A stretch of 64,000 nucleotides of DNA, taken from contig OZ038468.1 of assembly GCA_964036295.1 (NCBI GenBank), positions 3,344,501 to 3,408,500 on the forward strand. Direction: 5' to 3'. Of this stretch, positions 14,174 to 61,453 are shown in pieces; position 1 is the first letter of the stretch, and the number at the start of each line of letters is the position of its first letter. The position numbers and the translations under genes are program-made. The notes beneath the pieces are model-generated. The model saw nothing but the letters and a program-made list of their open reading frames with translations, had not been told where the DNA came from and did not search any database. This stretch comes from Plumapathes pennacea (Eukaryota; Cnidaria; Anthozoa; Antipatharia; Myriopathidae).

Positions 14174-14688
14174 ATGGCGCCAGACGTTGAAACGTCCGCA
14201 CCGAAAGCTAAACAGGAGAAAACCCCGCTCCGTCAGAGGCTGTCCTGTGGAACTGGCCATGTTCTCAATGATTTATTCCTCCAGATGGCCATTTCATTCA
14301 ACTTGGTGTACTTCATCAAAGTTGCGAAGTTAGACGGAAGTCAAGCTGGGTTTATTCTGCTTATTGCGCTCGTAACCAATGCGATATTTGCTCCAGTAGC
14401 GGGTTACTGCAGTGACATGTTCACAGTTCCTTTGTTATCTCGTGTAGTTGGCAAAAGAAAGGCCTGGCATCTTATCGGAGTCATTATAATGGCCATCTTC
14501 TTCCCGCTACTTCATACTCGTTGTCTGGTTTGTACGGACGACTCGTCGTGGACCAAGATTGCATATTATTTAGTCCTCATGATTTTAGTCAACGGCGTTG
14601 CATTTCCAACTATGAACGTTGGCCATCTCTCGATCATCTCAATGGTAGCCAAGAACCCAAAAGAATCGGTTGAACTTAACGTGTTCAG
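14174..14688 (+). pseudogene. Orphan first exon of an MFSD12-like gene (or alternative first exon)
   Basis: The exon is 515 bases, intact, starts at ATG 14174 and ends at the donor AG|GTGGGT with the same phase as the other first exons (two bases over). It encodes about 171 residues with the same transporter N-terminal half, including LNDLFLQM and [11 protein letters not shown]. The first 20 residues are distinct from copies A-C. No exon 2-9 homologue follows before copy A's first exon at 17509. It is therefore either a remnant of a deleted copy or an alternative promoter and first exon that could splice to copy A's exon 2 (18817). The sequence upstream does not match the copy A or B 5' flank. 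Confidence 0.7.
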
Positions 14689-14740
14689 GTGGGTTACTTT
14701 ACATGTGTTGATCATTTGGTTTTGCTTTGAAGAAATTTGG

Positions 14741-14870
14741 GTAGGGAGGTTCCGCTGACTCTACAAAACCCTGACCCTATTTAAGACACAAAGATAAAAA
14801 TTTTGCTACCTGTCTTAAACAAAGTGCTCTAACCTGTGACCCTGTTCAAGACTGGACACTATCTTTGGCC
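14741..14870 (+). repeat. Dispersed repeat 'X' after the orphan exon
   Basis: The block begins GGGTAGGGAGGTTCCGCTGA and includes ACCCTGACCCTATTTAAGAC and CCTGTCTTAAACAAAGTGC. It is the same block that lies just behind the first exon of copies A, B and C. Confidence 0.8.
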
Positions 14871-58400: not shown

Positions 58401-61400
58401 AAATTTGGTCCTTGACGATTTTCACTTGTTTCTCTGCAACTGAACTCTCTCTAAAGCAGACATTTCTCTAAGGCGGACACTAAATGCTAGTCCCAAGAGT
58501 GTCCGCCCTAAAGATAGAGTTCACTGTATCTCTAAAATTATGCTACACAATTTCTCGTCACCTTGAGTGGTTTTAAAGTAACGACTTTCCCTTGACGATT
58601 TGCAGGTTGGTGTTATTGTCGCCATCACTCAACTGGTTGTCGGTGCTGGATATGCCTACATGCCATTCTATCTCACAGATTACCTGTTGCTCGAAAAGGT
58701 ATTACTAAACGAAACGGAAAACCAACATTAAGAACTGGTACTCGTTAGACAGAAATCCAGCTGATATGGAAGTCAGACCGGCCCAGTTGATTTGTGGGTA
58801 ACCATGATAAGAATGGCCCATGATGCTTTTCGCGCGCATTCGGCGTGTGAAGGTCTGATTTACGCCATAGGTTTCGTCGCGCAGTGTTTCTCAACTAATT
58901 TGCGAAACGAATAGAACATTTCTTTTCGAAGCTATTAGCGGCGAAAAGAACAAAGTCCGTTCCAATACTACACGGGAGACACGTTTTTTAGTTATCAAGT
59001 TGCAAGGACATAAAAAATTATGGGATTTTATCACTGATTGTACGTTTTGGGTGCTGATATCCGATTACACGAATAGAGTAAAAATGGAATGTAATTTTTT
59101 TGCCATCAGATTGATTTAAATTAGAACAGTGTGACACTAAATATGGCACACATACCGACCATGTATGTACGTACCATGTAGTCGACACACCAAGCGTGTA
59201 CCGACCACGTATCGACTACATACCCGTTCACAGTATCGTACCTCGTGCAGTGTTTATCATGAAGCCCAGTGGAGTTAAGTGTATAAATTTCTTGCTTTCG
59301 AACGTGTCATTTTTTGTTCCATTTTGCGCGCGGCGAGAACGTTTGCCCTGCTTCGTTTGTCGTGTAATAAACAATTTATTACAAGAAAAGTCATGCAATA
59401 CGACTGTATTTTTGCTCGTCAGTTTTATTTTTTCTCGCCTGAAGCAGGCTCGAAAAAATAAAACCGACTCGTAAAAATACTCTGCCGTATTACACTCCTT
59501 CCCGTGTAATAAATTTCTTGCAGGAAGCCATTGCATATTTCCCTCTGATTCTATTTATAAGCGGGCTCTGTGGAACGGCATGCTCACAACCACTGGAGAG
59601 GAAGTTGAGAAGTAAGGTCAGTCTAAAAAATACAGGTTCTCCCAACCTTCCAAGAACAAAAAGTATGGGTGATGTAGAGAGAATTTGTAGTTTAATCAGT
59701 TTTCATCCGCGCAAGGTATCAAGAGCAAGGTATCTATTGGCTTTAAGGTGCCGGAACTTTAGAGATCACACAGTATGAACATGTTGCAGTGATTAAAATC
59801 GTCTGCCGTCCACACACATGTACATATAGCGGGAACCTGCAGCAGCGTTATGCAAGCAGGGATAAACTCACAGCATGAGGAGGCAGTGTGGCCGAGTGGT
59901 TAGGGCGCCTGACTTGAAATCCGGAGGTCCCAGGTTCAAGTCTCGCTCTGACCACTAACTGAATTTGCAACACGGTAGCCCCGGTTCAGATCCTCGGTCA
60001 CACTATGTAAATAGCCAACTGGTTAGCCTCCGACCAGGTGGGATTCTTTACACAAATTTGTGTTCAATTTATATTTCGTTTTTGCATTTCAAGTCTCCCC
60101 AATTAGCACGGCAGTGCTAAGTACATTGAGACTTAAATAAAGTGATTTATTTTATGTACACACTAGAAAAAAAAAATGGGCGAATGTTTTCAAGATTCGA
60201 CGAAACGCGCGCGCATGCGCATCTCAGTTTAGTCACATCAGTATTGATGCACGAATAGTCAACTGAATTTCTGCATGAATCTTTCTTACATTAACAGTGG
60301 ACCTACTGCTTGGCCGCCTCTGTACTCATTGGGTCAGCTGTCTGGATTTACTTCATCTCTAATTCCATCAAATACTCAATTTACGCGCCTGTGATACTTG
60401 TTGGTTTGGCTTCGTCTATGATGGTTGCTATATCATTCACATTTCTAACACGTGTGATTGGAGAAGACAAGGTTTGTACACGTGACTTATACAATGTTCT
60501 CGTTTAGCTGACGTAATATCAAGATGCTGTAAACAACCGCTACTCAGTCTTTTCACTATTTAGATAAAAATACAGTTATCTAACAACTTAACTCGGTATA
60601 TATCCAACATTTTTTAATACATGTTTACTTACTTAATTCCTTCAAAGTCATACAAAGTATACGCTTTCCGCAAACATAAGAAACATAATATATATATAAT
60701 TTGCATGCATGTAAGAATCTTTTCAAATCAAATTAATTTAAACTCGGCGAAGCGCCTCGTGAGTCCGCAACATTTTGACCATGTGATGACGTAAATCGTG
60801 GTAAATAAGAGTCCACACCACGACAAACCAGTGGTAATTTATTTTTTACCACAATATTTAGAAATATACAGGAAAGTTTCGTTGTATTTCGCTGCAAAAC
60901 GTGACATGCTGGCGTCAGCTGTCGTCAGCATCGTTGTCTGGACTCTTATTTACCACGGTAAATGGACCAATCAGAGAGTGAGAAACTAGTGTGTTGTGGT
61001 AAAATTTCTTTTTTGCAGCTCACTAAAAATAGCTTCTCTTCAACTCAAGCGACGAACTAAAATGTTCGAGAGTAAATTTTATGCTTTTGTTTTTTCTCCA
61101 CTTAGGAGACCGCTGGGTTTGTTTGCTCAGTTGCTGGCTTTATGACGCAAATTTTAACGGGAGTGTATTATATGATTGTGCAAAACTTCTATCCTACACA
61201 AAGGTAAGGTGATTATGTTCCTTTCCCTTACACACAACCAGTCATACGCAAACTAAACATGACGGCTTTAAGGGTATAATTTCTGATCTTTACTATGATT
61301 TTCTTCTACGAGAACTAGTTCTTCATTTCTTCTTGCAGTGAAAATGGAGAAGAATGCGAGGAATGTGCGAGTTTTGCCCGACTCGTGTACACTCTGACGC

Positions 61401-61453
61401 TTGCTGTTCCATCATCCCTGTGTCTCTTAATTGTGCTATTCTTCCAGACATAG
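52440..61453 (+). CDS. MFSD12: MFSD12-like major facilitator transporter, copy C (compact form)
   Basis: Coding exons: 52440-52957, 53721-53829, 58023-58307 (exons 3 and 4 fused), 58606-58698, 59524-59616, 60298-60471, 61106-61203, 61339-61453. The sum is 1485 bases, or 494 residues plus stop, close to vertebrate MFSD12 length. Three differences from A and B stand out. Exons 3 and 4 are continuous (NEKTSTEVSND), removing exon 3b and about 13 further codons without breaking the frame. Exon 1 lacks one codon (NGAYPTM for NGVAFPTM). The C terminus ends FFQT-stop where A and B read [13 protein letters not shown], so six residues are lost. Membrane segments and the [11 protein letters not shown] loop are intact and no frameshift is present, so the gene could be functional. 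Intron 2 is expanded to 4.2 kb by insertions. Confidence 0.87.
53004..53120 (+). repeat. Dispersed repeat 'X' in intron 1 of copy C, slightly decayed
   Basis: Same position as in the other copies, with small deletions near 53050 and 53090. Confidence 0.75.
54161..54612. mobile_element. MITE family 'V' (TTTACCACAACACACTAGTT end), rearranged copy
   Basis: The element reads from TTTACCACAACACACTAGTT to the CACGATTTACGTCATCACAT stretch, is broken at about 54385, and the opposite arm (GATGACGTAAATCGTGG to CAAACCAGTGGAAATTTATT) follows at about 54518-54612. Other copies are at 55764-56097 and 60744-61004. Confidence 0.65.
55302..55571 (-). mobile_element. tRNA-derived SINE, minus strand, intron 2 of copy C
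   Basis: On the minus strand it reads GGCAGTGTGGCCGAGTGGTT (A box region), then a B-box-like GGTTCAAGT, a unique body and an A/T-rich end. It matches the plus-strand copy at 59878-60152 along its whole length. Confidence 0.85.
55764..56097. mobile_element. MITE family 'V', intron 2 of copy C
   Basis: AATTTCCACTGGTTTGCCGT at the left is mirrored near 55925-55945, and the outer right end CACTAGT/GTGTTGTGGTAAA matches the start of the copy at 54161 in reverse. It also contains CTCGGCGAAGCGCC in reverse form. Confidence 0.7.
57077..57653. other. Copy-C-specific 0.58-kb segment in intron 2
   Basis: Inserted where copies A and B have a MITE end (TTTTTAGAAT to GAAATCCTGATAT). It contains a minus-strand frame of 119 codons with no recognised domain. 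Confidence 0.5.
59295..59508. mobile_element. Foldback element inserted just ahead of exon 6 of copy C
   Basis: The 214-bp insert is bracketed by ATAAATTTCTTG on both sides (59283-59294 and 59509-59520), a 12-base target duplication. The right-hand duplicate keeps the acceptor TTCTTGCAG of exon 6 intact. The interior is related in reverse complement to 19528-19720 of copy A. Confidence 0.85.
59878..60152 (+). mobile_element. tRNA-derived SINE, plus strand, intron 6 of copy C
   Basis: The head (59884-59955) has a serine-tRNA-like layout: GTGGCCGAGTGGTTAGGGCG with an A box, then CTTGAAA at the anticodon position and GGTTCAAGTC as B box. A 200-bp body follows with no tRNA 3' end, so it is a SINE and not a tRNA gene. 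It sits inside the ACAGCATG/TACACACT stretch that is continuous in copies A and B. Confidence 0.87.
60744..61004. mobile_element. MITE family 'V', intron 7 of copy C
   Basis: It runs from CGGCGAAGCGCCTCGTGAGT to GTGTGTTGTGGTAAA. Copies A and B read AATTTAAACTTTCTTTTTTG without interruption at this site. Behind it copy C also lacks the TTGA tail found in A and B. Confidence 0.75.

Follow-up and report, generated by a model that had tools for sequence, protein, structure and literature searches.

The closest described relatives of the genes considered here, a tandem array of predicted transporters in the antipatharian Plumapathes pennacea, are MFSD12 and, much more distantly, MFSD2A and MelB. 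Human MFSD12 is reported to be the entry route for cysteine into lysosomes and melanosomes, with import dependent on the H+ gradient, and to be phosphorylated by mTORC1 at T254 (PMC11187322). The open-access PMC literature yielded no MFSD12 work tied to cnidaria, Nematostella or anemones; among papers found with MFSD12 and coral, none is about corals judging by the titles, and a coral transporter paper (PMC11269664) concerns MFSD10, not MFSD12. Wider searches likewise showed no paper with MFSD12 among those listed.

The array lies in a 64,000-nucleotide stretch of contig OZ038468.1 (positions 3,344,501 to 3,408,500, forward strand; C7:3344501-3408500 in the contig numbering used below), hereafter the window, within a genome of 290 Mb in 24 contigs. 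It runs from the ATG of copy A at 14174 to the stop of copy D at 61453 and comprises three complete genes, B, C and D, preceded by A, which consists of exon 1 only. On their sequences, these four belong to a separate subfamily of the wider MFSD12 family, and B, C and D probably encode lysosomal solute transporters that vary in a central loop.

The array and its position in the family

Self-comparison of the window gives a short repeat at 14.2 kb and three large ones, which begin at about 17.1, 33.7 and 52.3 kb, with 5' flanks, 3' flanks and intronic repeats common to the copies. Exons were located using relatives elsewhere in the same genome, and the resulting models of B (11 exons, 591 aa), C (10 exons, 539 aa) and D (8 exons, 494 aa) are complete, multi-exon and in-frame, lie head to tail, have AG/GT at all internal splice sites, and keep open frames with agreeing phases in the shared exons. 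A first-pass annotation of this stretch had described three complete head-to-tail copies and an orphan first exon between 14174 and 61453, with common flanks and intronic repeats, and self-comparison and models confirm its coordinates, order and shared elements; the identical exon phases that it also reported hold for the shared exons, but the exon sets differ (11, 10 and 8). The features are as follows, in window positions, exons resting on the gene models unless another basis is given.

14075..14217, +, copy A, L009-like 5' flank and first codons (L009 alignment 14075-14694, 86%)
14174..14688, +, copy A, lone exon 1, chimeric, open frame, donor CAG/GTGGGT (sequence and translation; end placed by hand)
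14218..14917, +, copy A, B-like part, i.e. the remainder of exon 1 and the start of intron 1 (97.3% to B over 702 columns)
17509..18029, +, copy B exon 1 (also Pfam MFS_2, 9.3e-13)
18817..18925, +, copy B exon 2
20242..20334, +, copy B exon 3 (donor roughly where L010-L012 have theirs)
20659..20743, +, copy B exon 3a, central cytosolic loop (phase 0 to 1)
21725..21871, +, copy B exon 3b, central cytosolic loop, basic-Ser module (phase 1 to 1)
22833..23065, +, copy B exon 4
23429..23521, +, copy B exon 5
24297..24389, +, copy B exon 6
25507..25680, +, copy B exon 7
29110..29207, +, copy B exon 8
29335..29464, +, copy B exon 9 with stop
34078..34598, +, copy C exon 1
37449..37557, +, copy C exon 2
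39226..39309, +, copy C exon 3 (donor 9 nt upstream of that of B)
39643..39727, +, copy C exon 3a
40432..40552, +, copy C exon 3b remnant, lacking its 5' end and acceptor and excluded from the model (ends placed by hand)
41485..41717, +, copy C exon 4
42103..42195, +, copy C exon 5
42973..43065, +, copy C exon 6
44232..44405, +, copy C exon 7
45522..45619, +, copy C exon 8
45747..45876, +, copy C exon 9 with stop
52440..52957, +, copy D exon 1, lacking one codon relative to B and C
53721..53829, +, copy D exon 2
58023..58307, +, copy D fused exon 3 and 4, with 3a and 3b deleted and the frame kept
58606..58698, +, copy D exon 5
59524..59616, +, copy D exon 6
60298..60471, +, copy D exon 7
61106..61203, +, copy D exon 8
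61339..61453, +, copy D exon 9, ending in a stop that precedes those of B and C by a few codons

By profile match, B and D are firmly assigned to PF13347 (MFS_2), at 93.9 bits (1e-26) and 104.9 bits (4.8e-30), respectively, for a cut-off of 27. The relation of the copies to MFSD12 was placed by a tree of exon 1 only (161 columns; 50 rows, i.e. 49 first exons and human MFSD12, against MFSD2A and MelB), the human MFSD12, MFSD2A and MelB reference sequences being provisional; the human MFSD12 sequence used is 480 aa long and carries R51 and T254, in agreement with PMC7017362 and PMC11187322 on these residues. All 49 first exons and human MFSD12 fall on one side of the branch separating them from MFSD2A and MelB (support 100/99), so that, by this tree and these references, the window copies belong to the MFSD12 family in the wide sense. 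Human MFSD12 itself joins L044 and L051 (100/97 and 99/97), two orthologues at C7:12608285 and C7:12616969 (C7:12.61 Mb) with 55-56% identity to it, as against 32-33% for exon 1 of A-D. Copies A-D group with L009 and L010 (100/99) inside a clade of 35 rows (100/97 and 99/97), a sister group, holding the window copies, that stands apart from the MFSD12 orthologues; trees that unite human MFSD12 with A-D in one clade are rejected (approximately unbiased test, p-AU 3.75e-70). The root within the family is weakly placed, its two deepest groups having 91/45 and 91/76. The label MFSD12-like given in the first pass is thus apt for the wider family but not in the sense of orthology, the copies being placed outside the MFSD12 clade proper. 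At full length, D aligns with human MFSD12 in both halves, at 27% identity across 487 columns (E 7e-58, only three sequences being searched); for C the figure is 25% across 497 columns, and B aligns as two separate segments, 31% across 235 columns and 28% across 218.

Aligned blocks, coding and non-coding together, are about 90-96% alike between B and C and 80-91% alike between D and either of them. Pairwise synonymous divergence (dS), over 494-539 codons, is 0.064 for B-C, 0.135 for B-D and 0.111 for C-D, and the ratio of non-synonymous to synonymous divergence (dN/dS) is 0.37, 0.38 and 0.40, respectively. Judged by these values, B, C and D are real duplicates carrying the mark of purifying selection, and not haplotypes.

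Copy A is more complex than the orphan first exon of the first-pass annotation: it is indeed exon 1 alone, but it is no simple copy of B, its flank and first codons resembling L009, a gene 0.49 Mb away, and the rest being 97% B. Homology to B begins only at 14218; the first 60 columns of exon 1 match L009 at 54/60 and B at 36/60, whereas columns 241-480 match B at 237/240 and L009 at 198/240. A is thus a chimera, most simply read as the product of non-allelic exchange. A second exon-1 3' end lies downstream of it, at about 14929-14967. Within the B-like part, A and B differ by nine non-synonymous and four synonymous changes (ratio 0.69), and A may therefore be relaxed.

Central-loop exons

The central cytosolic loop, between the two transporter halves, is where the predicted proteins of the three genes diverge most. 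B carries two loop exons, 3a and 3b, between its exons 3 and 4; C has 3a only, and D has neither. The two extra exons were recognised because exon 3 and exon 4 of B and C are mismatched in phase (0 versus 1). In C a deletion has removed the start and acceptor of 3b, and the frame survives skipping of this exon because 3b is 147 nt long and phase-symmetric. In D, exon 3 is joined in frame to exon 4 as one exon; the idea that this is the ancestral arrangement was rejected, as the relatives L009-L012 have separate exons 3 and 4, and by comparison with them the fused state looks derived. A broken donor in B exon 3 was likewise considered and rejected, the donor 9 nt downstream being at about the place that L010-L012 use. 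Divergence is also higher in the loop part that exon 4 retains in all three genes, where non-synonymous divergence (dN) of D from B or C is 0.134-0.147 (47 codons), as against 0.048 in exons 5-7 (120 codons).

Extra central-loop exons occur in many family members, and the orthologue L044 has a short loop within one exon. A profile of 3b-type modules (consensus RKxSxxLRKxSxxLVPFE) was run on 20 long loci, L062 and the three window genes. One module above 25 bits was found in each of B, C (truncated), L009, L011, L015, L017, L018, L021, L022 and L023, and two in each of L012, L014 and L028; the profile was derived from eleven of these modules, so that their matches are built in, and those of C, L022 and L023 and both of L028 are independent of it. 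Matches in L019 and L027 are weak (below 10 bits), and nothing above 5 bits was found in L010, L013, L020, L024-L026, D or L062, several genes being covered only in part, so that the absences are not firm. By a hand count, from which L016 was left out since its module is that of L015 in an overlapping stretch, strong modules are present in 10 of the 15 long loci inside the 35-row clade and in 0 of the 4 outside it (L019, L020, L024, L062). Searched against the genome (E up to 10), one 3b module gave ten matches, eight of which fall inside family gene units, as assigned by hand, the other two (C9:15232606 and C12:534520) lying close to such units but unassigned. The family offers a natural series in which the transmembrane part is constant and the loop is gained or lost.

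Surplus first exons across the genome

The window array is part of a genome-wide expansion. A search with exon 1 gave 54 matches; 45 of the 50 outside the window have at least 145 residues and no stop, making 49 complete first exons with A-D. The five kept off the tree are L028 and L061 (halves of one exon), L055 and L056 (partial), and L058 (two stops). At least about 45 exon-7 units, merged by hand from three queries (a fourth adds none), lie on eight contigs, C1, C2, C3, C7, C9, C10, C11 and C12, and all such counts of genome matches are lower bounds. The largest cluster, at C1:38.74-38.99 Mb, has 16 first exons and 13 exons 7. The local expansion proposed at first pass is accordingly real as tandem duplication, but it is not isolated. 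About 45 MFSD12-family units in an anthozoan would point to an extensive and so far unstudied repertoire of organellar transporters; anthozoan biology leans on specialised vesicles, e.g. symbiosomes and nematocysts.

Several individual first exons are unusual in themselves. The exon shared by L028 and L061 (C2:29127036-29128155) matched in two pieces about 0.6 kb apart, which is not so in the 49 complete exons; those at C7:3260781 and C9:13385468 are fragments, the second with two stops, and are probably decayed members. The first exons at C1:26209869 (L054) and C1:26227676 (L053) differ by 29.7 non-synonymous and 3.3 synonymous changes; positive selection in this pair is possible (one-sided p 0.02) but not taken as shown, the pair having been picked from many.

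At loci with more first exons than downstream sets, the arrangement makes alternative first exons possible, and A could be one for gene B, the two supplying interchangeable N-terminal halves to one common remainder. For the window copies this is a tentative proposal. Copy A has an ATG, an open frame, a matching phase, a donor and its own L009-like 5' flank, and is situated 3.3 kb before B on the upstream side. Elsewhere, a single set of exons 2-9 at C3:16.68-16.69 Mb, located downstream of L052, is preceded by L043, L046 and L052, first exons that are all open and deeply diverged; in the 3.0-kb and 5.5-kb gaps between the three, exons 2-9 gave no match below E 0.05, with queries that recover six exons in L062. 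L043, the farthest upstream, has 49% exon-1 identity to human MFSD12, compared with 35% for L052, a closeness not expected if the exon were dead. The first exons L016 and L015 at C9:14.2 Mb, of which L016 is the upstream one by 1.9 kb, give dS 0.40 and dN/dS 0.38, and a neutral frame so old stayed open in 1-7% of simulations (at 0.4 or 0.2 changes per site). On C1, the near-identical first exons L041, L040 and L038 stand before one exon 7.

Against this stands the ratio of 0.69 between A and B, and in simulations at the ages considered, a neutral A kept its frame open in 45-70% of cases. L015 has no recognisable exon 3, so its locus may be decaying, and in general the loss of exons downstream of the surplus first exons could be a recent event; L040, L041 and L045 on C1 are recent near-copies, with no exon 7 of their own among the matches listed. 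Several first exons upstream of one downstream set are found at the C3 locus, and in the window only A precedes B. On the arrangement of their exons, some loci may conceivably be alternative-first-exon clusters that yield organellar transporters with exchangeable N-terminal halves, A serving gene B in this way, though we regard this as doubtful. If it were so, each exon 1, coding for the first helices (about 170 residues as inferred from alignment), would be spliced alternately to the common remainder, with the three first exons of the C3 locus as the clearest case.

The C3 locus (C3:16677600-16693400; L043, L063, L046, L064, L052, L065) also has a partial second exon 6, which was excluded from the count as its donor is not clear, and the C9 locus (C9:14195336-14202328; L015, L016) has two first exons before one gene.

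Elsewhere in the window, a 359-codon open frame (stop to stop) at 5329-6408 (+) contains a PRiA4_ORF3 domain (Pfam 4.2e-25), which takes its name from a plasmid protein. Intron 7 of copy C has a long TA dinucleotide run at about 44680-44850 (IYIYIY frames). The segments 59872-60148 and 55299-55576 form an inverted repeat pair, 90% alike, one of which includes the sole Rfam match in the window, a tRNA-like match at 59882-59953 (31.6 bits); from its sequence the pair looks like a tRNA-derived short interspersed element. At C1:14549115-14549252 (L029) there is an Antho-RFamide-type precursor with many QGRFG and several QYWKGRF units, a precursor type that marks anthozoans and narrows the probable cnidarian of the first pass to an anthozoan.

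Function and comparison with described transporters

Preference for a separate, loop-varied subfamily also depends on how three further explanations fare. It is improbable that the window genes are true MFSD12 orthologues, locally expanded and retaining the melanosomal or lysosomal cysteine role in pigment cells. They do share the wider family with MFSD12, and their boundary between exons 1 and 2 falls close to where L044, the orthologue, has its own; 14 exon-1 columns, including those of a K-x-W-H motif, are kept in at least 45 of the 50 rows with human MFSD12 among them. The genome, however, has two better orthologues, the tree test rejects a grouping of the human protein with the window copies, these copies no longer have the helix-II Asp, and the short single-exon loop of L044 is unlike those of B and C. 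No link of the window copies to pigment cells appears in the data, and nothing in the analysis points to the specialised pigment cells suggested at first pass.

Equally unlikely is that the window genes are decaying duplicates still open by chance. Exons have been lost in C and D, the stop in D exon 9 is earlier, and a neutral copy would have escaped stops in an appreciable share of simulations at the ages used (14% for B, 18% for C and 5% for D). On the other side, dN/dS is 0.37-0.40 in all three pairs, three frames are open simultaneously, the exon losses keep the frame, and the internal splice sites are intact. An assembly artefact, whether unmerged haplotypes or collapsed repeats, is very improbable: all four copies are ordered on one 19.8-Mb contig, C and D each have exon losses of their own, and a dS of 0.064-0.135 far exceeds the usual heterozygosity (1-2%), so that haplotypic duplication, named at first pass as what would undo the array, is not borne out.

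With a separate loop-varied subfamily as the preferred reading, unequal crossing-over would have generated the copies in repeated rounds, and non-allelic exchange would have reshaped A. The proteins would be MFS transporters, most likely in lysosomes or lysosome-related organelles, moving a small solute into the organelle, the likeliest candidate being cysteine or a related amino acid or thiol; as in MFSD12, the proton gradient would probably power transport. T254 falls within the central loop of human MFSD12, and because the human loop holds this mTORC1-phosphorylated residue, the copies would probably differ more in regulation than in substrate. A dileucine-like motif, seen by eye only in the N terminus of B, was dropped.

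Two points weigh against this proposal. Function is carried over from human MFSD12 by inference across only 32-33% identity in exon 1, and residue changes in A-D may mean another coupling or another solute. In MelB, the D55 and D124 sites couple ions or bind substrate. At the D55 position, human MFSD12 and both orthologues have D, whereas A-D have N, N, N and S, and D is present in five and E in one row of the 35-row clade. At the D124 position, human MFSD12 and the orthologues have Q and A-D have N, the clade as a whole having E in 17 rows, D in 10, N in 6 and S in 2. If these positions have MelB-like roles, the window copies would work differently from MFSD12.

Comparison with the known transporters is clearest for MFSD12 itself (human, and L044/L051). 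The window copies resemble it in belonging to the same wider family, in the full-length alignment of D, in the exon 1/2 boundary (L044), and in K-x-W-H and the other conserved columns. They differ in their low exon-1 identity and position outside the orthologue clade, in the longer loop that B and C carry in extra exons, and in the loss of the helix-II Asp (MelB D55). Structures of the sodium-lysophosphatidylcholine symporter MFSD2A (7mjs and 7n98; E 0.0054 and 0.012) are the only solved ones that the whole of D reaches up to E 1; MFSD2A is nevertheless very distant, lying outside the MFSD12 family in the tree (100/99), and keeps both helix-II Asp residues, of which the window copies have neither. 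MelB (PDB 4m64) is reached by a weak match of B exon 1 (E 0.087), and its cation-site residues, as compared in the provisional reference sequence, are not kept in the window copies.

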